From: an uncultured Anaeromyxobacter sp. | GTDB taxonomy: Bacteria; Myxococcota; Myxococcia; Myxococcales; Anaeromyxobacteraceae | NCBI GenBank assembly: GCA_903855945.1 | Contig: CAIOAK010000144.1 | Span: 1-34,209, forward strand | Length of the DNA: 34,209 nucleotides | Reading direction: 5' to 3' | Shown here: positions 2,488-32,957 of the stretch, in pieces | How the letters are laid out: every line of letters begins with the position of its first letter | How positions within the stretch are numbered: the first letter of the stretch is position 1 | Made by a program: the position numbers and the translations under genes | Notes under the pieces: generated by a model | Told to the model about the DNA's origin: nothing | Seen by the model: the letters and a program-made list of their open reading frames with translations, nothing else | Database searches by the model: none

Positions 2488-3827
2488 GCCGCTGGCGCGT
2501 CCGGCAGCCGCGCCTCTTCTGGCGCCTCTACCTGGCCGGGCTGGGGCTGCTCGCGCTCGTCGGGGTCGCCAACGTGGTCGTCGGCTCCCTCGTCGGGAGG
2601 ACGCCCTCCGTCCGCGGGACCGAGCCGCTCACCCGCTATGCGGCCGAGCACATCGCCGACCACCGCTCCTCCCCCGAGCGGATCGACGCCGAGCTCCGCC
2701 AGATGGCCGATGCCTTCCACGTGGACATGGCCTACCGGCTCGACGACGGCCGCCTGGTCGCGAGCGTCGGCGACGTCCCTGCGATCTCCGAGGTCGAGCG
2801 GTCCCGGATCTCGGACGGGGTCCGCCGCATCACCGACGACGACAGGACCGTCTGGGCGGCCCGCGTTCCCGGGAGCCCGCCCGGCTACCTCGTGGTCGCC
2901 GCGCCGCGCCGCTCGTTCCCGGTGGAGCGGGCCGCGGCCTTCATCTCCGCATGGCTGCTCGTCCTGGCGCTCGCCGCCTTCCCGCTGGCGCGCGCGCTGG
3001 CCAGCCCCATGGAGAAGCTCACCGCGACGGTGCGGGAGCTCGGCCAGGGAGATCTCTCGGCCCGCTCCGGCCTCCGCCGCTCCGACGAGGTGGGAGAGCT
3101 CTCCGCGGCCTTCGACGACATGGCGGCCCGGCTGGAGGGGCTCGTCCGCTCCGAGCGGCAGCTCCTCGCCGACGTCTCCCACGAGCTCCGCACGCCCCTC
3201 TCCCGCATCCGCGTGGCCCTCGACCTGGCCGCCGAGGGGGACGTGGAGAGCGCCCGGCGCTACGTGGGGGAGATCCGCATCGACCTCGAGGAGCTCGACG
3301 AGCTGCTCACCGACATCCTCACCGCGGCCCGGCTCGACCGCGCCGGCGGGCGGGGCGAGGTTCCGCTCCGGCTCCAGCAGGTCCCCTCGTCGGAGATCCT
3401 GGAGGCGGCGGCCGCACGCTTCCGGCTGGCCCATCCGGAGCGGGAGCTCCGCGTGGTGCTGGGGCCAGACCTTCCGCAGCTCATCGCCGACCCGGCCCTC
3501 CTCCGGCGCGCCATCGACAACCTCCTCGACAACGCCCGGAAGTACTCCGAGGCCCCGGCCCCGGTGCTGCTCGAGGCGGAGGCCTCCGACGGCTTCCTCC
3601 GGGTCTCGGTGCGGGACGAGGGCATCGGCGTCGATCCGCAGGACCTGCCGCGCCTCTTCACCCCCTTCTTCCGGAGCGATCGGAGCCGGGCGCGGGGCAC
3701 CGGGGGGGTGGGGCTGGGGCTCGTGCTCGCGAAGCGCATCGTGGAGGCGCACGGCGGCGGCATCCAGGTGGAGAGCCGGGCCGGCCTGGGAACCACCGTC
3801 CGGTTCCGGGTCCCCTTCGAAACGTAG
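2484..3827 (+). CDS. Sensor histidine kinase (HAMP, HisKA, HATPase)
   Basis: Membrane sensor kinase, partner of the preceding regulator (ATGA overlap). From the 447-residue sequence: membrane segment about 15-37; periplasmic sensor of about 110 residues; second membrane segment about 150-172; HAMP linker about 172-225; HisKA with the phospho-accepting His233 in DVSHELRTPLSRIR; N-box DNLLDNARKYSE (Asn350); G1 box DEGIGV at 378-383; and G2 box GTGGVGLGL at 405-413. The HELRTPL core and compact periplasmic loop are typical of CpxA/RstB-like kinases, but the signal cannot be predicted. It converges on the small membrane protein gene on the other strand with only 2 bp between the stops. Confidence 0.94.
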   Translation: MSRWRVRQPRLFWRLYLAGLGLLALVGVANVVVGSLVGRTPSVRGTEPLTRYAAEHIADHRSSPERIDAELRQMADAFHVDMAYRLDDGRLVASVGDVPAISEVERSRISDGVRRITDDDRTVWAARVPGSPPGYLVVAAPRRSFPVERAAAFISAWLLVLALAAFPLARALASPMEKLTATVRELGQGDLSARSGLRRSDEVGELSAAFDDMAARLEGLVRSERQLLADVSHELRTPLSRIRVALDLAAEGDVESARRYVGEIRIDLEELDELLTDILTAARLDRAGGRGEVPLRLQQVPSSEILEAAAARFRLAHPERELRVVLGPDLPQLIADPALLRRAIDNLLDNARKYSEAPAPVLLEAEASDGFLRVSVRDEGIGVDPQDLPRLFTPFFRSDRSRARGTGGVGLGLVLAKRIVEAHGGGIQVESRAGLGTTVRFRVPFET

Positions 3828-3829
3828 AA

Positions 3830-4294
3830 CTAGAAGACGTCCCCGCACTTGCCGCAGCGGGCCTCGCGGAAGAGGAAGTCGTTCCCGCGGCCGGTCACCT
3901 TCCCGCACCCCGGGCACCGGAGCGCGAACCACTCGAACGCCGAGCGCCGTCCCAGGGCGATCGAGGTCGTGACGAGCGGCAGGACGAGCCCGGCGAGCAT
4001 CACCGCCGCGAGCCGCCAGGGGAGCTCCCCCTTCCAGAACCCCAGCCCGAGCCCGGCGAGGACCGTCGCGGCGAGGAAGAGGGTGAGCCAGCGCCCCCAG
4101 AGCCAGGCGAGCCGGTAGCCCCGGGCGATGCCCCAGACGAGCACGCCCATCACCACCACCGCGAAGATCCACTGGGCGAAGCCGACGCCGTTCGTCGAGG
4201 AGACCAGGAACGCCACGCCCGCCTGCACGGAGGCGGCGAGGAGCAGGGAGATGCTCGCGACGTGGATGCTCCGGGGTGCCTTCCGCGCGGTCAC
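3830..4294 (-). CDS. Small multi-pass membrane protein with C-terminal zinc ribbon
   Basis: 154-residue protein that I do not recognise. It has four probable membrane segments (about 12-32, 40-60, 68-88 and 94-114) followed by a soluble tail with two CxxC pairs, CPGC and CGKC, separated by about 18 residues. That spacing fits a treble-clef or ribbon zinc site. Its GTG start (4294) lies 1 bp after the TGA of the upstream aldehyde dehydrogenase gene, so it is probably the second gene of that operon. No function can be assigned. The cysteine spacing suggests a structural zinc domain rather than a redox centre. Confidence 0.8.
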   Translation of the reverse strand: MTARKAPRSIHVASISLLLAASVQAGVAFLVSSTNGVGFAQWIFAVVVMGVLVWGIARGYRLAWLWGRWLTLFLAATVLAGLGLGFWKGELPWRLAAVMLAGLVLPLVTTSIALGRRSAFEWFALRCPGCGKVTGRGNDFLFREARCGKCGDVF

Positions 4295-6029: not shown

Positions 6030-6302
6030 ATGAAGACCCGATTCCTCGCCGCACTCGCCGCCGTGACCTTCGCCACCACCGCGCTCGCCTACCAGGTGAC
6101 CGGAGAGGTGGACTCCGTCACCCCGACCACCGTCGTCGTCAAGGCGACCGGCGGGAAGAACAAGGGAGAGAAGTTCGAGATGACCCGCACCGCCGACACG
6201 AAGGTGACCGGCGATCTGAAGAAGGGCAGCAAGGTGACCGTGGAGTACGTGATCACCGCGAAGTCGGTCGAGGTGAAGGCCGACAAGCCCGCCAAGAAGT
6301 AG
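6030..6302 (+). CDS. Small exported protein, DUF5666-like
   Basis: 90-residue protein with a clear Sec signal peptide (KTR basic start, hydrophobic Ala/Leu/Val core, cleavage expected after ALA at residue 20). A short mature domain of alternating beta strands follows (YQVTGEVDSVTPTTVVVKA, then KVTVEY) with a Lys-rich tail (ADKPAKK). The VTGEV...V...TVVVK layout resembles small OB-like periplasmic domains such as DUF5666; that comparison is from memory, not a search. ATG start at 6030 with AAAGGA about 8 nt upstream. It converges with the sigma-54 regulator gene, leaving 4 bp between stops. Function unknown. Confidence 0.8.
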   Translation: MKTRFLAALAAVTFATTALAYQVTGEVDSVTPTTVVVKATGGKNKGEKFEMTRTADTKVTGDLKKGSKVTVEYVITAKSVEVKADKPAKK

Positions 6303-6306
6303 CCCG

Positions 6307-7692
6307 TTACTGCTCGTCCCCTCCACGGGCCAGCCCGTGCTTGTGGAGCTTGTCGTGGAGGGTGACGCGCGAGATGCCCAGCTTGCGCGCGGCCTCGGTT
6401 CGGTTCCCGGCCGAGGCCCGCAGCGCTTCCACCACCAGCCCTCGCTCGAAGGCGTCCACGCGCCCCTTGAGCGTCATGGCCAGCACCTCGCCGCGCTCCC
6501 CCGTCCCGCCGTCCGTGCCGGGCGGGAGCAGCGCCGGATCGAGGGTGCCGTCGTGGGAGAGCGCCACGAGCTTCTCGATGGAGTGCTCGAGCTCCCGCAC
6601 GTTGCCGGGCCAGTGCCAGGCGACCAGACGGCCGAAGACCTCGTCGCCGGCCCGCAAGGGCCCGGTGCCGAAGCGCTCGGAGAAGCGGGCCAGGAAGTGT
6701 CGGGCCAGGAGCGGGATGTCCTCGGGGTGCTCGCGCAGCGCCGGCACGTGCAGGTGCACCACGTTGAGCCGCCAGTAGAGATCCTCCCGGAAGGCGCCCC
6801 GCGAGACCCGCTCGGCGAGGTCGCGGTTCGTGGCGGCGATGACCCGGACGTCCACGTTGCGGGAACGCTCCTCGCCGACCGGGCGGATCTCCCCCTCCTG
6901 GAGCACCCGGAGGAGCTTCGCCTGCAGGGCGAGCGGCAGCTCCCCCACCTCGTCGAGCAGGATCGTGCCCCCGTCGGCCTCGCCGAAGAGCCCCACGCGG
7001 GTCCGCACCGCGCCGGTGAAGGCGCCGCGCACGTGTCCGAAGAGCTCGGCCTCGGCCAGGTCGGCCACCAGCGAGGCGCAGTTGAAGCGGACGAACGGGC
7101 GTGCGGCGCGGCGGGAGGCCTGCACGAGCGCCTCGGCGACCCGCTCCTTGCCCGTGCCGCTCTCCCCGGTGAGCAGCACCGCCACGTCCCGCGGCCCCAC
7201 CCGGGCCACCAGCGCCGCCAGCCGGCTCATGGCCGGCGAGTCGAAGATCATCGTCCGGGAGAGGGCGAGCTCGCCGGTGAGCCGCTCGTTCTGGGCGCGC
7301 AGCCGCGCCGCCTCGGTGGCGCGACGGACCACCGCGAGCAGCTCCTCCGGCTCGAAGGGCTTGCGGAAGTAGTCCCAGGCGCCGGCCTTGATGGCCTCGA
7401 CCGCCTGCCGCTCCGAGCCGTGGGCGGTCACCATCACCACCCGGGGGGCGCCGGGACCGGTGCCGATGCGGCGCAGGAGCTCCATCCCGTCCATGCGGGG
7501 CATGCGCAGGTCGGTGAGCACGAGGTCGGGGGCGGCCTCGGCGAGACGCTCCAGCGCCTGCATCCCGTCGGCGGCCTCGGTGACGTCCAGCCCCTCCGAT
7601 TCCAGGATTTCACGGAGAGTGTACCTGACGCCGGCGTCGTCGTCTACGACCAGCGCCCGCGGGCGGGGCTCGGCGGCGGCACGCTCGCTCAC
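6307..7692 (-). CDS. NtrC-family sigma-54-dependent response regulator
   Basis: 461-residue activator of sigma-54 RNA polymerase. Receiver domain 1-125 with VVDDD and phospho-acceptor Asp61 (LVLTDLRMP). The AAA+ domain has Walker A GESGTGKE at 176-183, the sigma-54-contacting GAFTGA loop intact at 223-228 and Walker B GGTILLDE at 241-248. A Fis-type HTH is at the C-terminus (NRTEAARKLGISRVTLHDKL). The frame is open far upstream, but GTG 7692 is the start: it overlaps the sensor kinase stop by 4 bp (GTGA) and gives a natural N-terminus ahead of the receiver. Its target may include the tolC gene upstream, where a sigma-54-like element is seen (inference). Confidence 0.95.
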   Translation of the reverse strand: MSERAAAEPRPRALVVDDDAGVRYTLREILESEGLDVTEAADGMQALERLAEAAPDLVLTDLRMPRMDGMELLRRIGTGPGAPRVVMVTAHGSERQAVEAIKAGAWDYFRKPFEPEELLAVVRRATEAARLRAQNERLTGELALSRTMIFDSPAMSRLAALVARVGPRDVAVLLTGESGTGKERVAEALVQASRRAARPFVRFNCASLVADLAEAELFGHVRGAFTGAVRTRVGLFGEADGGTILLDEVGELPLALQAKLLRVLQEGEIRPVGEERSRNVDVRVIAATNRDLAERVSRGAFREDLYWRLNVVHLHVPALREHPEDIPLLARHFLARFSERFGTGPLRAGDEVFGRLVAWHWPGNVRELEHSIEKLVALSHDGTLDPALLPPGTDGGTGERGEVLAMTLKGRVDAFERGLVVEALRASAGNRTEAARKLGISRVTLHDKLHKHGLARGGDEQ

Positions 7693-25141: not shown

Positions 25142-25216
25142 GCGGGAATAGCTCAGCGGTAGAGCATCGCCTTGCCAAGGCGAGGGTCGAGGGTTCAAAT
25201 CCCTTTTCCCGCTCCA
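25142..25216 (+). tRNA. tRNA-Gly (GCC), CCA encoded
   Basis: Cloverleaf by eye: acceptor GCGGGAA (25142-25148) with TTCCCGC (25206-25212); D stem GCTC/GAGC; anticodon stem TCGCC/GGCGA with loop TTGCCAA (anticodon GCC, glycine); T arm GAGGG-TTCAAAT-CCCTT with one G-U pair; discriminator T and encoded CCA at 25214-25216. The 3' half is the probable attachment site of the downstream integrative element, whose integrase gene ends 44 bp beyond the CCA. Confidence 0.95.
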
Positions 25217-25259: not shown

Positions 25260-26465
25260 CTACGTCGCCGGGACCACCGCCAGTGCCATTCTAGTGCCAT
25301 TTTCGGCCAGCTTCTGGCTCGCCTTCGACAGCAGTCCGACCGCCTTCTCCTTGTGGGCGGTGGTCAGGTGGATGTAGCGCATCGTCATGTTCAGGGTCGT
25401 GTGGCCGAGCAGTTCCTGGATGTCCTTCGCCCCGGCGCCCTTCATGGCCAGATGCGACGCGAACGTGTGGCGGAGCACGTAGACGTTCCCGTTCACCTTC
25501 AGCCCGGCTCGGCGCTGGACCTTCTTCATCCAGACGCGGAAGACCTTCTGGTTGGCGGGGCGCCCGTCGTCGCGGAGGAAGACGTGGTCGTCACCCAGGT
25601 GCCGGATGGCCTTCAGGGAGGCTGCTAACTCCAGCGTCATCGGCTGCCACTTCACGTTGTTCGTCTTGGTCGAGTCGGTGACGTCGCGCCAGGACTGCTT
25701 GTCCACCAGGAGTTCGCCGTTCGCCCCCCGGTTCCAGTAGATGTCCGACTGGAGGAGCGCAGCCGTCTCGCCGGGGCGGAGCCCAGCGTGCGCCGTGATG
25801 TACACCATGGCCAGGTACCGGGACCCAAGTGCAGTAGCGGCAGTGACGATGCGTTCGAACTCGTCGAACTCGTAGAACTCCGGAGTCTTGGATCGGTTCT
25901 TCAGCAACCCGACGGAGTCCACCGGCATCGCCGAGATGAGCTTCAGGCGTTTCGCCACCTTCAACATCTTCGAGAGGGTGGCGAGCACGTTGTTCACGGA
26001 GCTGGGTGCGTAGTCCTTCATGCGGACCTTGATGGCCTGGATGTCGAGTTCATCAACTTCGTCGAGCCGCTTGTTCCCGATGGCCGGGATGATGTGGTTC
26101 CGGAAGACGCTTTCCCACGAACAACCCGTGGCGGCCTTCTGGCGGCTGGCCTTGCCGTAGTCGAGGAAGTCCTTCTTGAACTCCCCGACCGTGGGGACCC
26201 GGGCCCTGGCGCCGGCCGTCAGCCTGGTCTTCAGCTTGTCGTGCTCCTGCTTCGCCCAGGCATCTCGCTCGGTGGCGGTCCCGCAGAACTCCTGCGGGAT
26301 CGTGAGCCTTCGACGGGTCTCCTTCCTGCCGGGGACCTTGATCGTGATGTGGGCCTTGAACACCCCCTTGTCCCTGCGGCGTTTGCACTCCGGGCCGCAT
26401 CCCTTGTTCTTCTTGCAGCCCGGCGCGTGGTCGAGCCGTACTGCCTCCTTCACATTCACGCTCAT
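25260..26465 (-). CDS. Tyrosine recombinase integrase
   Basis: 401-residue site-specific recombinase that would insert and excise the element at tRNA-Gly. Core-binding domain about 90-190 (VPTVGEFKKDFLDYGK...). Catalytic domain with Arg230 (AHAGLRPGE), Arg332 (VLRHTFASH), His355 (LLGHTTLNMTMRY) and nucleophile Tyr364. The first His of the usual HxxR box is Tyr329. The N-terminus has an unusual His13/Cys17/Cys23/Cys27 cluster in a Lys/Arg-rich segment, possibly a zinc knuckle used for arm-site binding. ATG 26465 overlaps the excisionase stop (ATGA). The frame is open 42 codons further upstream, but that overlaps the excisionase gene and looks non-coding. Confidence 0.93.
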   Translation of the reverse strand: MSVNVKEAVRLDHAPGCKKNKGCGPECKRRRDKGVFKAHITIKVPGRKETRRRLTIPQEFCGTATERDAWAKQEHDKLKTRLTAGARARVPTVGEFKKDFLDYGKASRQKAATGCSWESVFRNHIIPAIGNKRLDEVDELDIQAIKVRMKDYAPSSVNNVLATLSKMLKVAKRLKLISAMPVDSVGLLKNRSKTPEFYEFDEFERIVTAATALGSRYLAMVYITAHAGLRPGETAALLQSDIYWNRGANGELLVDKQSWRDVTDSTKTNNVKWQPMTLELAASLKAIRHLGDDHVFLRDDGRPANQKVFRVWMKKVQRRAGLKVNGNVYVLRHTFASHLAMKGAGAKDIQELLGHTTLNMTMRYIHLTTAHKEKAVGLLSKASQKLAENGTRMALAVVPAT

Positions 26466-26722
26466 CGCTCGGACTCCCCGGGCGCCAAGACGCGGTTTTC
26501 CCGAACGTAGCGTAGCAGGCCAGTCCGACTGACGCGCCAAGGCCCCGCCGGGAGCCGGAAGGCACCTGGAAGCTTGCGCTTCAGTGCCCACTCGTAGGCG
26601 GTCTTCTCGTGAACCTGGAGAAGCTCCGCTGCCTGCCGGATGGTGAGGTACTCGGCCAAGGTTGGTGTCGGGAGATGGGACTCACCCCCCGAGGGGATCT
26701 TCAAGGTCTCAGCGATTGCCAC
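26462..26722 (-). CDS. Excisionase-like HTH protein
   Basis: 86 residues. Central MerR/Xis-type winged helix (LAEYLTIRQAAELLQVHEKTAYEWALKRKLP, then GPWRVSRTGLLRYV) with a flexible N-terminus. GTG 26722 is chosen because AGGAG lies 8 nt upstream; a longer open frame to 27262 reads Pro/Arg-rich sequence with no family signature. Its stop overlaps the integrase ATG (ATGA), so xis and int are co-translated, and a directionality factor role is likely. It may also act as a regulator of the long upstream region. Confidence 0.8.
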   Translation of the reverse strand: MAIAETLKIPSGGESHLPTPTLAEYLTIRQAAELLQVHEKTAYEWALKRKLPGAFRLPAGPWRVSRTGLLRYVRENRVLAPGESER

Positions 26723-27263: not shown

Positions 27264-27428
27264 TCGGAGGGTCGCGGCGGTGCGTGGCAAGCCGCTCGAC
27301 CACTAACCCTGTTGCGAGCGGCCTACACCCTCAGTGATAGTCATTTGGGGCGTGAGGGCGGAATTCGTACTTTTAGCCCTTGCGGGATTGGCTCCTTTTT
27401 CTACTTTTACTTTCAGGAAAGGAGTTCC

Positions 27429-27650
27429 ATGAAGAATCACAGAGGAGAGATGACTGCACTGCGCCGCGCGATCTTTGATGCGAGGTTGACGCAGACAAAA
27501 CTGGCCGAGGACGCAGACGTGCCTCAGGGCGCGCTGTCGCTGGCTGCCACTGGACGCCTGCCGCTGGGGCGTACGACGGCATCGAGGATCCGGACCGCGC
27601 TGGCGGCACACGGCGTGCGGGTATCGATTGAAGACGCGAGGGGGCTCTAG
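27429..27650 (+). CDS. Small Cro/CI-type HTH DNA-binding protein
   Basis: 73 residues forming a compact lambda-repressor-like HTH domain: MTALRRAIFDARLTQTKLAE then DADVPQGALSLAATGRLPLG, where the second helix pair (QTKLAEDADVPQGALSLAA) is the recognition motif. ATG 27429 is chosen because AAAGGAG ends 4 nt upstream; an open frame from 27312 lacks a ribosome site and a recognisable N-terminus. Its TAG abuts the Prim-Pol ATG directly. It is the first gene of the replication operon, hence a likely autoregulator or copy-control protein, and one candidate to bind the element palindromes. Confidence 0.82.
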   Translation: MKNHRGEMTALRRAIFDARLTQTKLAEDADVPQGALSLAATGRLPLGRTTASRIRTALAAHGVRVSIEDARGL

Positions 27651-29108
27651 ATGGCCTGCGTCGAAGAGAAGGCACCGGGAAAGAGGGCCCAGCAGGCTGT
27701 TTGGCTGTACGAGCAGGGGCTCACCCCGATTCCGCTCTGGGGAGTAGCCAAGGAGTTCAACGGGAAGTTCTACTGCCGCTGCGAAAGGGGCTTCTGTGAC
27801 ACCCCGGGCAAGCACCCCATCCTGAAGGGCTGGACGGCGCCCGGCGGGCTCTCCCGCGCGGCCATCGAGGAAGCGTTCACCGTCCACCGGTATCCAAACA
27901 TCGGGTGCCTGACGGGGAGCAGCTCGCAGCGCTTCCCCGACGGAACATGGCTCATCATCATCGACATCGACATTGCCGATGGGAAGCCGGGCGTCGAGAG
28001 CCTGAGGGCGCTGGAGCAGGTCCTCGGGGTGTTGCCGCGGACCGTCACGGTCGTCACCGGGTCGGGCGGGACGCACCTCTACTTCCGGACGAACAAGAAG
28101 GTCAGGACCAGCGTCGGCAGGTTGGTTCAGGGCAGGGTTGTAGGCCTTGCCCCTGGAGTCGACACCAGAGGGGAGGGCGGCCAAGGCGTACTTCCACCCT
28201 CCCTCCACTTCTCTGGTGCGGGCTACGCCTGGGCCGCTGGGTGCTCCCCCGACCAAGTCGCCTTCGCCATGCTTCCTGATGCCTGGGAGGTGAAGCTGGT
28301 CGCACTGGGCGGGGACGAGCCGAAGGCGCCGCGAGCTGAGAAGACGACACATCGGATCTTTACGCCGTCAAACGGCGCCGACGTCCTGGAACAGATTCGA
28401 CTCCATCCGCTGACGGAGTGGGCGACCGAGAACCCAGACGAGCTGGGCCGTGAGCTGTGGCGTGCCTTCGCCACCAACATCGCGGCGTTGGTCGCCGAGG
28501 ACGAGGGCCTGGAGGACGAAGGCCGCGAGCTGTGCCACGAGATTTCGGAGGGCTACAGCCGCTACAGCCGACGGGAAACGGACCGCCTCTTCACCGGCGC
28601 CGTCGACAGCATGCGCAAGGGCTACGGGCCCACCACGTTCGAGCGGATGGTGCAGTACGGCGCCCCCCGCGACCTGTGCACGGGAGGGACAGCGCTTGTG
28701 GCGGCAGCTCGAAGGGCAGCTCGTGGCGGCCGCGTCGTCGATTCGAGCGCCGCGGGCTGGCTAGAGGGTGACGACTCCGCCGATGTCAGGGACGCGATGG
28801 TCGCGTACAGCGCGGCCAACGAGCCGACTGGCCCAGAAGCATGGCCCCTCCACGAGAGAGGCACCTGCCCGGTCTGCTGCGCGGCTTCGGGGAGCTTCTA
28901 CATGCACGTCGTCGAGGAAGACCCCGAGAAGCCGAGCACCTGGGAGTGCAACTCCCCCGAGCACGGCAAGCTCGCGCTGGCCTCCGGGAAGAGCATCGGC
29001 TGGCCAGACGACCGCGGAGCTTTCCACGGGTGGCAAATCCACATCGACGCCTTCAAGGCGGGGAAGGGGGTGAAGGCGTACCTGGTCGAGACCGGGTACC
29101 TGGCCTGA
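27651..29108 (+). CDS. Bifunctional primase-polymerase (Prim-Pol) protein
   Basis: 485 residues with the AEP-type Prim-Pol domain of plasmids and satellites in the first about 215. Zinc-associated CRCERGFCDTPGKHPIL (Cys42, 44, 49 and His55). Metal-binding DxD Asp105/Asp107 in LIIIDIDIADG. SGGTHLYF at 138-145. Third motif GVDTRGEGGQGVLPPS with Asp171 and Arg173. A helical middle (about 240-330) precedes a C-terminal CPVC...C...H cluster that may bind a second zinc. It should prime or copy the element's own DNA. ATG 27651 directly follows the HTH stop, with GAGGGGGCT as ribosome site. Copy 3 of the palindrome lies inside its coding region. Confidence 0.9.
   Translation: MACVEEKAPGKRAQQAVWLYEQGLTPIPLWGVAKEFNGKFYCRCERGFCDTPGKHPILKGWTAPGGLSRAAIEEAFTVHRYPNIGCLTGSSSQRFPDGTWLIIIDIDIADGKPGVESLRALEQVLGVLPRTVTVVTGSGGTHLYFRTNKKVRTSVGRLVQGRVVGLAPGVDTRGEGGQGVLPPSLHFSGAGYAWAAGCSPDQVAFAMLPDAWEVKLVALGGDEPKAPRAEKTTHRIFTPSNGADVLEQIRLHPLTEWATENPDELGRELWRAFATNIAALVAEDEGLEDEGRELCHEISEGYSRYSRRETDRLFTGAVDSMRKGYGPTTFERMVQYGAPRDLCTGGTALVAAARRAARGGRVVDSSAAGWLEGDDSADVRDAMVAYSAANEPTGPEAWPLHERGTCPVCCAASGSFYMHVVEEDPEKPSTWECNSPEHGKLALASGKSIGWPDDRGAFHGWQIHIDAFKAGKGVKAYLVETGYLA
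28359..28372. promoter_or_regulatory. Element palindrome copy 3, inside the Prim-Pol gene
   Basis: TTTACG-C-CGTCAAA, read in frame as F-T-P-S-N. It lies between the catalytic and helical regions of the protein, where sequence constraint on the protein is probably low. Confidence 0.65.
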
Positions 29109-29222: not shown

Positions 29223-31067
29223 ATGAGTAACGAAATCGCACCAATCGAACCCGCAGTAATCACCAAGGAGGTGCTGACACCAGAGGCGCAGAACGAACCG
29301 ATGGCGGATAGCTCGTTCCAGTGGATGGTGGGGACGTTCAAGCAGAGCAAGCTGCTTGAGCAGTTGAAGACGAAGGGCCTGGCCGACGAGAAGGTGGTCG
29401 TGCTGATCGCCGGAGTCGTCGGGGACCTGGCCCGCAAGGACGAGAAGAGGGGGCTCTCCGGAGTGGTGGAAGACGGAGCGAGAGGAGCCTTCCTCGGACT
29501 GGTCCAGGGGGTGACGCCGTTTGACGCCGTGAAACTGGAGGAGATCTGGGCGCACAGGCCGGCCATTGTTCCAGTTCTCGGGAAGTGGCCTGGGGTCGAT
29601 GTCCGGGCCTTGGAGAAGGGCTGGAACGAGAAGGCCAGCCCGAGCGTCACCCTCAGGACGGAATGGGAGGTGCACCGGAAGGGCGTTGCGGCGGCGTTCG
29701 AGGGGGAGGAGGCCGTACGGAAGGCCAAGGCGGCCGGTGTCCTCCTGCTGCCGGACCTCTCGAGCAGGTTCTCGTCGATCTGCGAGACCCTGCGTAAGCC
29801 GACCGCGTGCGTGCCGCTGTTCGGCGGCCGGGCGCTCGTCTTCAACCAGCTCGTCTCGAAAGTTGAAGTCGACCGCAAGGCGATGGGCGACCGGACGGGG
29901 GAGGATCTCGTCAGCCAGATCCGCGAGCACGTGGAGACTCGCCTAGGAGTTCCCCGTGAAGAAGAGGGGCGCAAGTGGATCGAGCACATCAGTTGGCCCG
30001 TGGACGACACTTACAGAGCTGTCGTCCGTGTTGCGAAGGACGCTAGCTACCACCCGGTGCGCGCCCACCTGAACGGACTCAAGTGGGATGGCGTCAAGCG
30101 CCTCAATGACATCGCCCGCTTCGGGTTCGGACTCGACGACGCCCACCCGCTAGAGGTCAAGATGACGGGCTGGTGGTTCATTCAGGCTGTGGCCCGGATG
30201 ATGGAGCCAGGCGGCCAAGCCGACTACATGCTCGTACTGGTGGCTGATCAGGGAGAGGGAAAGTCGACGCGCATCCTGAACCTGTCTTTCGACCCGTCAT
30301 GGGTCACGGACGAGAAGGTAAGACCGGGCGACAAGGACAACTACCTCACGCTGCACATGAAGTGGATTTGTGAGTGGGGCGAGCTGGCAGGCCACGCCAA
30401 GCGGGAAGCGGAGGAAGTGAAGAACTTCCTTACGAAGCGCAGTGACAACTTCCGCAAACCCTATGACCGCGAGACCCTGGACCACCCGAGGGGGTTCGTC
30501 TTCATCGGTACGACGAACGACTGGGAGTTCCTGAAGAACGATCCGACCGGGTACAGGCGCTACTGGCCGGTCCGGGTGAAGGGCGAGGCCGGGATGGCGT
30601 GGATGATCGCCAACCGGGACCAGATATGGGCCGAGGCCATGGAGGCCTACCGCAAGGGGGAGCGACGCTGGCCGGATTCGGCTGAGTCGAGGGAGTTGGC
30701 GAAGTACCTCCAGAAGTACACGAAGGACATCCTCGCTCCCGGCGAAGACGACTGGGTGGTTCTCGCCGCCGAGGCCGCGTACCAAGCCAACAAGGGCGGC
30801 GCCGTACAGCGGGAGGATGTGATGGCGATGCTGAAGAAGAAGGAAGGCGAGGAGATGCTCCCCGAGGTTCGCGCGGAGTACAGGAAGACCATCCCGCTGA
30901 TCCTCAAGAAGGCCGGTTGGCGAACGACGGAAACCACTTTGGGCGGGGGGCGCAGGAAGGGCCTCGTTCCTCCCATGGCGCGGGCCGAGGAACTGCTTGC
31001 GCATCCAAAGGTTGAATCCGCCGGAAAATCAGCTTCTCCGGAAGAGACGATCACGGGCGGAGGCTAA
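29223..31067 (+). CDS. VapE-type superfamily 3/AAA+ replicative helicase
   Basis: 614 residues with the virulence-associated-E ATPase domain found in satellites such as SaPIs and P4-like elements. N-terminal part about 1-250 of unknown fold. Then YHPVRAHLNGLKWDGVKRL. Walker A QGEGKST at 343-349 and Walker B WICEWGE at 381-387. KNFLTKRSDNFRKPYDRE at 400-417. Sensor TTN at 430-432 and arginine finger region DPTGYRRYWPV (Arg445/446). C-terminal about 470-614 is charged and helical. ATG 29223 has only a weak AATAAG ribosome site, so expression may depend on the upstream hairpins. Copy 4 of the palindrome lies inside the gene. Confidence 0.9.
   Translation: MSNEIAPIEPAVITKEVLTPEAQNEPMADSSFQWMVGTFKQSKLLEQLKTKGLADEKVVVLIAGVVGDLARKDEKRGLSGVVEDGARGAFLGLVQGVTPFDAVKLEEIWAHRPAIVPVLGKWPGVDVRALEKGWNEKASPSVTLRTEWEVHRKGVAAAFEGEEAVRKAKAAGVLLLPDLSSRFSSICETLRKPTACVPLFGGRALVFNQLVSKVEVDRKAMGDRTGEDLVSQIREHVETRLGVPREEEGRKWIEHISWPVDDTYRAVVRVAKDASYHPVRAHLNGLKWDGVKRLNDIARFGFGLDDAHPLEVKMTGWWFIQAVARMMEPGGQADYMLVLVADQGEGKSTRILNLSFDPSWVTDEKVRPGDKDNYLTLHMKWICEWGELAGHAKREAEEVKNFLTKRSDNFRKPYDRETLDHPRGFVFIGTTNDWEFLKNDPTGYRRYWPVRVKGEAGMAWMIANRDQIWAEAMEAYRKGERRWPDSAESRELAKYLQKYTKDILAPGEDDWVVLAAEAAYQANKGGAVQREDVMAMLKKKEGEEMLPEVRAEYRKTIPLILKKAGWRTTETTLGGGRRKGLVPPMARAEELLAHPKVESAGKSASPEETITGGG
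29520..29534. promoter_or_regulatory. Element palindrome copy 4, inside the helicase gene
   Basis: TTTGACG-C-CGTGAAA with a further partial GTGACGCCGTT directly to the left (29511-29521). It encodes F-D-A-V-K in the N-terminal part of the protein. Confidence 0.65.
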
Positions 31068-31387
31068 CCACCTCAGTCAGGTGGATCCCACCTGGCTCCC
31101 ACCGCGCCAGGTGGGAGAAAAAGTATAGCAATAGCATGAGGTTAAGCCGCGGATGGGGTGGTTTTCCACCTCCCACCGCGGTTTTTCTTCTAAAGGGGCC
31201 CAGTAGCGGGGAATGCGCCGTGCGCTATGCCATCCAGTACATCACCCTTTCAATACTCCACTATTACCTATTCCTATACCTTTTAAGATCAATAGTAAGG
31301 TGGGTAGGTGGGAAGTAACGTAAGCCTTCGGCATTGCTGTTTGTTTCGTCCCACCTGATGAGGTGGGAGCCAGGTGGGTAGGTGGGA
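31068..31387. repeat. AGGTGGGA iteron cluster around an AT-rich core: candidate replication origin
   Basis: The word AGGTGGGA, or its core AGGTGG/CCACCT, occurs at least 11 times. In the left block: 31068-31073(-), 31079-31084(+), 31086-31093(-), 31097-31103(-, partial), 31109-31116(+), 31166-31171(-) and 31171-31177(-, partial). In the right block: 31298-31304(+), 31306-31313(+), 31349-31356(-), 31361-31368(+), 31372-31378(+) and 31380-31387(+). Between the blocks, 31235-31300 is strikingly AT-rich for this genome (CTATTACCTATTCCTATACC and following). Iterons flanking an AT-rich tract next to the helicase gene is the layout of satellite origins such as those of SaPIs; origin function is inferred. 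Confidence 0.65.
31147..31190 (+). terminator. Rho-independent terminator after the helicase gene
   Basis: CCGCGGATGGGGTGG (31147-31161) pairs across a TTTT loop with CCACCTCCCACCGCGG (31166-31181) apart from small bulges, and is followed by TTTTTCTTC. It probably ends the HTH/Prim-Pol/helicase transcript 80 bp past the helicase stop. Part of the stem is built from the same repeat words as the candidate origin. Confidence 0.75.
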
Positions 31388-31495
31388 GACCCCCGCATCC
31401 GCGCCATCCGAACGGCAATCGGCAGCGCCCCCAAAAATCGAAACTAAATGCACTCCGTGCCTTTGATCCAAGGGGCCTGCACCCTAGGATCATGC

Positions 31496-31684
31496 ATGAC
31501 ACTCTCGGTTACCGACAACCCCCAGCCCCGCGTGCGCGTATCTGCGCGAATCCCCTTCGCCCTCTTCGAGAAGCTCGAACAGCACCGGTTCGATCTGTCC
31601 CGCACGGAAGGCCGCCGTGTCTCGTCTAGGACGCTCCTGGAGACCGCCCTCGCGATGTTCCTTGAGGGGAGGGTGGCGCCGTGA
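31496..31684 (+). CDS. Ribbon-helix-helix-like small protein
   Basis: 62 residues: MTLSVTDNPQPRVRVSARIP, then an amphipathic helix FALFEKLEQHRF, a turn, and VSSRTLLETALAMFLEG. The beta strand (RVRVSARI) followed by two helices matches CopG/ParD-like RHH DNA-binding proteins, with an extended loop between the helices. ATG 31496 is chosen because AGGA lies 6 nt upstream; the in-frame ATG at 31448 lacks a ribosome site and would lie next to the repeat region. Its stop overlaps the next gene (GTGA). It could repress its operon or bind the neighbouring repeats. Confidence 0.68.
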   Translation: MTLSVTDNPQPRVRVSARIPFALFEKLEQHRFDLSRTEGRRVSSRTLLETALAMFLEGRVAP

Positions 31685-32199
31685 TTACCGCCCACTGCCC
31701 GACGTGTTTCACCTCCATCAACGTCCTCGATCCTGGTGAGTACTACGCCCTCTCCCCCGCTGAGCGCGAACTGATCGACCGGGATGAGCGCGACCATGCC
31801 GAGATCCACGGGGTCGTAGCCGCCGCCCTCGTCGAACTTGGCTTCACCACCCACGGACCCTGGGAGGCCGACGCCGAAGAGAACCAGGCGCGGGGGGACA
31901 TGCAGTCCCCGAACCGCGAGGTCCAGAACCAAGGTGTCCACATGTTCATCAGGGCCTTCTTCTACCGATCCATCTTGCGTGCCGCCGAACTGGGCTACTG
32001 GCGCCAACACCCTGACGAGGAGGCGTTCGGGAGGCTGCTGCTGCTCCGTACGTTCATCCCCAAGGACCTCGCCGACCGGGCACGCGTCGACATCGGTCCC
32101 CAGACCCACTTCATCGACCCGCGCACACAGCGCTGGGAGCCAGACAGCGTTCGCCCCATCGAGGATTGGGAGGGTGATCCAGAGGTCATCTCGCCGTGA
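31681..32199 (+). CDS. Hypothetical protein with N-terminal CxxC
   Basis: 172 residues that I do not recognise. It starts MITAHCPTCFTSINV (Cys6/Cys9, a possible half zinc site). An acidic helix (LSPAERELIDRDERDHAEIHG), an aromatic central helix (VHMFIRAFFYRSILRAAELGYW) and an acidic tail follow (PIEDWEGDPEVISP). GTG 31681 overlaps the RHH stop, and its own TGA overlaps the next GTG (both GTGA), so three proteins are translated in near-fixed ratio. The tightly coupled context suggests an element-specific complex, unknown. Confidence 0.72.
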   Translation: MITAHCPTCFTSINVLDPGEYYALSPAERELIDRDERDHAEIHGVVAAALVELGFTTHGPWEADAEENQARGDMQSPNREVQNQGVHMFIRAFFYRSILRAAELGYWRQHPDEEAFGRLLLLRTFIPKDLADRARVDIGPQTHFIDPRTQRWEPDSVRPIEDWEGDPEVISP

Positions 32200-32618
32200 C
32201 GCCCTCCGCGGACTTGGTCCAGAACATCCGGCAATACCCGAAGCCAGTTGCCCTCGCTCCGCTCGACACGCTCGCCCTCGACCGCCTCGTCTCGGGGGAT
32301 GCCGATCAGGCCATCCAACACGCCCGGAGCCTCGCCGAGGCCCTGACAGGCATCGACCGTGACGGCGTGCGTCTTCGTGTCCTGGCCAAGGCCCTGGCCG
32401 CTGAGCGTACGCTCCAGGCCCTCCTGGAGGCCCTCCTGGCTGAGCGCGTGCGCCGCGCCGATGTCCAGGGCGTCCGGACCCTGAACGAGGCGCTACGGGG
32501 TTGCGTGGCCCGCCTCGAGCGTCTGGCCATCGCTCACCGGTTGGACTCCCACTCCGGGTCCCGCCCCTCCGTCGTCCTCATCAACCACGCCGAGAACGTC
32601 CGGGTGGGGGCGGCGTAG
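32196..32618 (+). CDS. Hypothetical alpha-helical protein
   Basis: 140 residues, almost entirely predicted helix, with heptad-like Leu/Ala/Arg runs (LAKALAAERTLQALLEALLAERV; LNEALRGCVARLERLAIAHRL). It ends in a beta-like tail (RPSVVLINHAENVRVGAA). No family recognised; the tail VVLINHAENVRVG loosely resembles the last strand seen in some phage terminase small-subunit-like proteins, too weak to call. GTG 32196 overlaps the upstream stop. Confidence 0.7.
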   Translation: MTPSADLVQNIRQYPKPVALAPLDTLALDRLVSGDADQAIQHARSLAEALTGIDRDGVRLRVLAKALAAERTLQALLEALLAERVRRADVQGVRTLNEALRGCVARLERLAIAHRLDSHSGSRPSVVLINHAENVRVGAA

Positions 32619-32624
32619 CTCGCC

Positions 32625-32957
32625 ATGGCCGTGTATCGGGACACCGTCCCGCGCCTGACCATCGCCGACGTCCGAGGCCGCTACAAGCCGGCTGTCTTCA
32701 GCACCCTTGAGTCGGTGGCCGTCGAGGCCGGGGGGTTCCAGGCCGACATAAAGATCGTGAAGACGGCCCATCCAACGTGCATCGGCGGCTACCGTCGGGT
32801 GTTCGAGTGCCCTCACTGCGGCCGAGGTGCCCTGACAGTGGGGTGTGTGGATGGCCTGGGCTGGCGCTGCCCCGCACGCGACTGCGGCGGGTGGCGGGGT
32901 CGGAATAGAACTTCGCCGCCGAGCCAACGGGAAACCGCGCGACCTAACGCAGTGTAA
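32625..32957 (+). CDS. Small zinc-ribbon protein
   Basis: 110 residues. N-terminal about 50 residues of mixed structure, then a clear zinc ribbon ECPHCGRG (Cys62/Cys65) and RCPARDCGGW (Cys82/Cys87), with extra Cys52 and Cys74. The tail is basic and Ser/Pro/Arg-rich, as in nucleic-acid-binding proteins. ATG 32625 starts 6 bp after the previous stop with no strong ribosome site. It ends the four-gene operon that begins with the RHH protein. DNA or RNA binding is inferred from the ribbon and basic tail only. Confidence 0.7.
   Translation: MAVYRDTVPRLTIADVRGRYKPAVFSTLESVAVEAGGFQADIKIVKTAHPTCIGGYRRVFECPHCGRGALTVGCVDGLGWRCPARDCGGWRGRNRTSPPSQRETARPNAV

Follow-up and report, generated by a model that had tools for sequence, protein, structure and literature searches.

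An iteron array behind a VapE helicase gene as the probable replication origin of an integrated, satellite-like element in an Anaeromyxobacter-family contig

The window analyzed here is the whole of contig CAIOAK010000144.1 (C144), a stretch of 34,209 bp with 71% GC from the Anaeromyxobacter family. It is chromosomal up to ~25.2 kb, from where an element runs rightwards out of a tRNA-Gly region in the order tRNA-Gly, tyrosine integrase (minus strand), a weakly matched HTH protein, Prim-Pol, VapE, a repeat region, and small genes as far as the contig goes (Table 1). The contig stops at 34209, short of the element's right end. Two whole-element features of PICIs are present, namely, a terminal integrase next to a specific att-like site (the tRNA-Gly) and a module of primase and Rep helicase (PF09250 and PF05272). 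To the right of the repeat region, searches of Pfam and PHROGs returned no family match for any gene up to the contig end, the small ribbon-helix-helix-like protein included.

Table 1. Coordinates of the element's genes and of the parts of the repeat array in the window
Feature	Position	Strand	Evidence or details
tRNA-Gly, probable attachment site	25142-25216	+	ARAGORN; 3'-end copies without a tRNA gene on contig C170
Tyrosine integrase	25260-26591	-	PF00589, E 2.1e-23; phrog_1
HTH protein, weak match	27312-27650		Pfam/PHROGs search; sole candidate for a PICI master repressor
Prim-Pol (primase/polymerase)	27651-29108	+	PF09250, E 2.2e-24
VapE-type AAA+ helicase, proposed initiator	29223-31067	+	PF05272, E 3.7e-67
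Outer-left iteron block	31066-31116		Copies at 31066 (-) and 31079 (+), two mismatches each; 31086 (-), 31097 (-), 31109 (+)
Terminator-like hairpin and T tract	31146-31190	+	Holds the inner-left pair, 31164 (-) and 31171 (-); fold -25.8 kcal/mol, z -4.9
Core between the inner pairs, proposed melting site	31179-31297		AT-rich
Inner-right tandem iteron pair, AGGTGGGTAGGTGGGA	31298-31313	+	Copies at 31298 and 31306
Outer-right iteron block	31349-31387		Copies at 31349 (-), 31361 (+), 31372 (+), 31380 (+)
Small protein, ribbon-helix-helix-like by eye	31496-31684	+	Homologues in L046 and L047
Three-gene cassette, annotated without function	31681-32957	+	Genes at 31681-32199, 32196-32618, and 32625-32957; shared wholly or partly with other myxobacterial elements

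The cassette at the right recurs, whole or in part, in elements L046 (8169-9420), L082 (10059-10887), L048 (3753-4939), and L047 (18931-19278), and the myxobacterial elements that share it have quite different primase/helicase modules. On contig C170 (L263, G000:C170), the 3' end of tRNA-Gly occurs twice in tandem on the minus strand (1027-1051 and 2288-2312), accompanied by a similar terminator and surrounded by toxin-antitoxin-like genes, with no tRNA gene; these copies look like attachment-site scars, possibly marking the right end of this element or of a sister island.

A repeat array occupies the space that separates the VapE stop (31067) from the next small ORF, which starts at 31496. 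Allowing at most one mismatch, the word AGGTGGGA occurs 11 times within 31068-31387, six times exactly, and two further copies with two mismatches widen the left edge. The initial annotation, which had described at least 11 copies in both orientations, set in two blocks around an AT-rich tract right after VapE, is thus borne out. Chance is excluded because 1000 dinucleotide shuffles of the region yielded a mean of 0.45 such copies and a maximum of 4 (0 of 1000 exceeding 4), against the 11 present. Other 320-bp intervals of the contig hold at most 3 copies with up to one mismatch, and the whole window contains 7 exact copies (shuffle mean, 1.24), of which 6 fall at 31086-31387. In a scan for over-represented words across all 350-bp intervals of the contig, 31051-31400 ranks first; the region holds 14 GGTGG cores, and the 16-mer AGGTGGGTAGGTGGGA has only two occurrences in the genome, both in the array region.

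The first copies overlap or directly follow the VapE stop, the position of an origin of this type, and the two iteron blocks (31066-31178 and 31298-31387) flank the AT-rich core in the two-set arrangement of PICI and SaPI origins. The core is 119 bp long and has 45% GC, compared with 71% for the contig, and its lowest 40-mer (31247-31286) drops to 30%. A 46-nt section of the left block matches part of the right block in inverted orientation (80%). The hairpin at 31146-31190 is followed by the T tract TTTTTCTTC and is, judging from its sequence, a probable intrinsic terminator; a sigma-70 promoter scan and a simple terminator scan of the region called none. The two copies inside this hairpin, AGGTGGAA and CGGTGGGA, have one mismatch each and form a degenerate pair, and the pair at 31298/31306 and the outer blocks stand outside it. 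GC skew, which the initial annotation had proposed as a check, passes from positive to negative at ~31.4 kb; because this sign is opposite to that of a simple bidirectional origin and is confounded by genes, we did not use it as evidence for an origin, and it lends that reading no support.

To place the array in context, we collected 125 VapE loci from Myxococcota genomes, plasmids, one phage, and IMG/VR, which came down to 45 after those more than 60% identical were dropped and to 40 with enough downstream DNA. The plasmid and phage loci stood in as positive controls for SaPI records, many of which contain toxin genes. For word clusters, the interval directly 3' of VapE ranks among the top 5% of the locus in 18 of these 40 (binomial p = 1.5e-13) and comes first in 17 of 40; the control interval upstream of VapE reached the top 5% in 1 of 36. 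All 17 loci whose core could be defined (as the largest gap, with words picked from the data) have oppositely oriented, outward-facing sites around a core of 64-121 bp, and their inner sites are mostly tandem pairs of 8-9 bp. In view of this choice of words and core, the plan was retested on new, held-out loci: 8 of 12 nonredundant loci fell in the top 5%, and the orientation was opposite in 7 of 7. The array at 31066-31387 conforms to the plan of the 17 scored loci, which assigns the hairpin copies to the inner-left pair and those at 31298/31306 to the inner-right pair. Since phage L093 and plasmid-prophage L091 carry the same plan, it also extends beyond satellites.

No array stands behind VapE in about half of the loci, among them most of the Myxococcus type (~790 amino acids). 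The best family-level relative of the window VapE (L007, 36% identity, from genome G016 of the same genus) has no cluster behind its gene, and a search with back-translated patterns for close relatives of the window VapE returned none in the genome-contig and viral-contig collections. The strongest clusters of the cyanobacterial plasmids L092 (~6100-6450; GGTGGAAC, nine copies) and L087 (~3550-3900; GGTTGAGTA, six copies) begin ~450-500 bp before the VapE stop and lie inside the 3' part of VapE, not behind the gene. Weaker clusters of the words TGGCAAC and TCCGGACA, of roughly the same plan, occur upstream of the shared cassette in L046 (7587-7842) and L047 (18452-18668), both of which have a helicase module of non-VapE type.

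The words themselves vary by locus (AGGTATGGA, CGGCAACC, ATGGGACA, TGGGACA, GTAGACA, AGGTTGG, ATCGGTGG, GGTCGGGAC, AGGTAGGA, and others), and the word of the window recurs. An array of AGGTAGGA lies behind VapE in L079 (genome G061), and a scan of IMG/VR for AGGTGGGWAGGTGGGA detected 48 stretches, 4 of them within ~150 bp behind a VapE gene (L302, L291, L303, and L295). Because L291 mixes the two forms within one array, AGGTAGGA on the left and AGGTGGGA on the right, we define the word class as AGGTRGGA. The closest likeness is in L293 (IMGVR_UViG_3300013830_000091, 3448-3537), whose 11 exact copies of AGGTGGGA are nearly superposable on the window array, with the direct copies of the right block spaced identically (0, 8, 63, 74, and 82 bp). 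The 7.5-kb record of L293 yielded neither VapE nor a D5_N domain, and a search for DNA relatives of its array in phages gave no match. All of these arrays (L302, L291/L303/L295, L293, and L079) agree with that of the window in word class and plan and differ from it in their elements and flanking genes. The view that the repeat is unrelated to known words falls, since arrays of AGGTGGGA and AGGTAGGA are found behind other VapE genes and in L293; the new initiator specificity first suggested is not supported either, given that each element tends to have its own word and that AGGTRGGA recurs.

Across 18 loci, similarity between words tracks the C-terminal region of VapE (Mantel r = 0.36, p = 0.002) but not the helicase core (r = 0.16, p = 0.10); the partial correlation for the C-terminal domain is 0.34 (p = 0.003). 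Loci L116 and L091 have in common both an unusual C-terminal region and the word CGGCAAC. In an AlphaFold2 model of the window VapE, a C-terminal winged helix (residues ~509-582) follows the AAA+ core. The best solved relative of this model is PriRep1 with double-stranded DNA (PDB 7pds, "Similar to D. nodosus vapE"; Z score of 28.9, rmsd of 5.8, 379 aligned residues), and the SaPI5 primase-helicase is also among the structural matches. PriRep1 belongs to the same VapE helicase family (profile E 4e-102), with 22% identity to the window VapE in the structural alignment, and its C-terminal part, compared by eye, is of the L116/L091 type, unlike the winged helix of the window protein. The prediction that VapEs with the same word would have the C-terminal domains nearest to that of the window failed (L302 ranks 203 of 204, and the L291 group ranks 95-97), and because these domains are not the closest, covariation of word and C-terminal domain cannot be claimed for the window VapE.

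Ribbon-helix-helix proteins bind short direct and inverted repeats, and the array stands just upstream of the gene for a protein of this appearance (31496-31684), whose homologues in L046 and L047 likewise follow word clusters. The array might accordingly be an operator or a centromere-like site of this protein, serving autoregulation or partition, but we consider this improbable because same-plan arrays occur behind VapE where the protein has no homologue (L082 and all IMG/VR loci); the set of 18 loci, in which the word follows the C-terminal domain of VapE, also speaks against it. That the repeats are only terminators or other RNA hairpins ending the replication operon is very unlikely: the hairpin with its T tract does contain two copies, and those at 31086-31116 can pair as well, but the right block, folded entire, is no more stable than its shuffles (z -0.5), direct tandem copies make no stems, and unrelated elements keep the place, orientation, and spacing. 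The initial annotation had named repeats that are terminator stems only and are absent from relatives as one outcome that would count against its proposal; related elements do have arrays at the same place, and what stands of the objection is that 2 of the 11 copies sit in a terminator-like stem.

There is also only a slight chance that the array is a former origin of the VapE kind, now a decayed remnant in an element that perhaps no longer replicates. Such decay would suit the degenerate inner-left pair and the absence of the element's right end from the contig, whereas the integrase, Prim-Pol, and VapE frames are all open with good family scores, the right-block spacing matches that of L293, and mixed words within one array are found in L291 too. 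Against the reading as an origin we counted the sign of the GC skew, the array-less half of the VapE loci, the L293 array for which no VapE was found, the C-terminal domain of the window VapE not being closest to those of same-word VapEs, and the location of the degenerate inner-left pair in a hairpin.

Taken together, these observations make 31066-31387 very probably the origin from which an integrated, satellite-like element replicates, a site that the C-terminal winged helix of VapE would read. The initial proposal of a SaPI-type origin beside the rep/helicase gene is well supported by position, by architecture, and by ~50 other VapE loci. In the mechanism we envisage, VapE would bind the AGGTRGGA iterons through its winged helix, and two ring assemblies would form on the outward-facing inner pairs, one on each side of the ~119-bp core. 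Melting of the core's AT-rich part would follow and VapE would load itself, after which the adjacent Prim-Pol would prime and, following excision, host polymerases would finish synthesis, with replication presumably proceeding in both directions.

A broader and distinctly more tentative proposal is that a single origin grammar is common to the VapE-type initiators found in phages and in satellites, consisting of outward-facing iterons, usually 8-9-bp tandem pairs, on both sides of a core of ~55-120 bp. The word would be an exchangeable vocabulary, its reader a C-terminal domain that can be swapped, and an array of the L293 type, with AGGTGGGA at almost identical spacing, may serve a non-VapE helicase. 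We regard the comparative result (a common plan, a variable word, and a link to the C-terminal domain) as more interesting than the single case, which would place a well-formed PICI-type origin, a kind already known, in an Anaeromyxobacter-family element. VapE-linked origins can often be read directly from the sequence behind the gene, and the collected pairs of genes and words offer a way to ask how a winged-helix domain reads an iteron and make origin exchange between elements predictable and testable.

Among known systems, the putative origin of SCCmec Cch2, a helicase that loads itself and binds, through its C-terminal domain, direct repeats lying just 3' of its operon (eLife 2020, PMC7581432), resembles the proposed origin of the window in having repeats downstream of the helicase genes and a C-terminal domain as reader, the latter predicted in the window; it differs in its only three 5-nt iterons (AAGTG) and in its helicase and primase families. 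PICI origins lie immediately 3' of rep and always have two iteron sets around an AT-rich region (PMC6092414), and the C-terminal domain of SaPI Rep recognizes the iterons of the origin downstream of its gene (PMC7581432). The window differs from these in its Anaeromyxobacter-family host, in the word AGGTRGGA, and in having the inner-left pair inside a terminator-like hairpin. Its sequence features are nonetheless those of a PICI-type origin, and it shares with the SaPI and PICI systems (PMC6092414, PMC7581432) a putative origin immediately 3' of the helicase/initiator gene, a primase gene beside the helicase, and an integrase at the module's opposite end.
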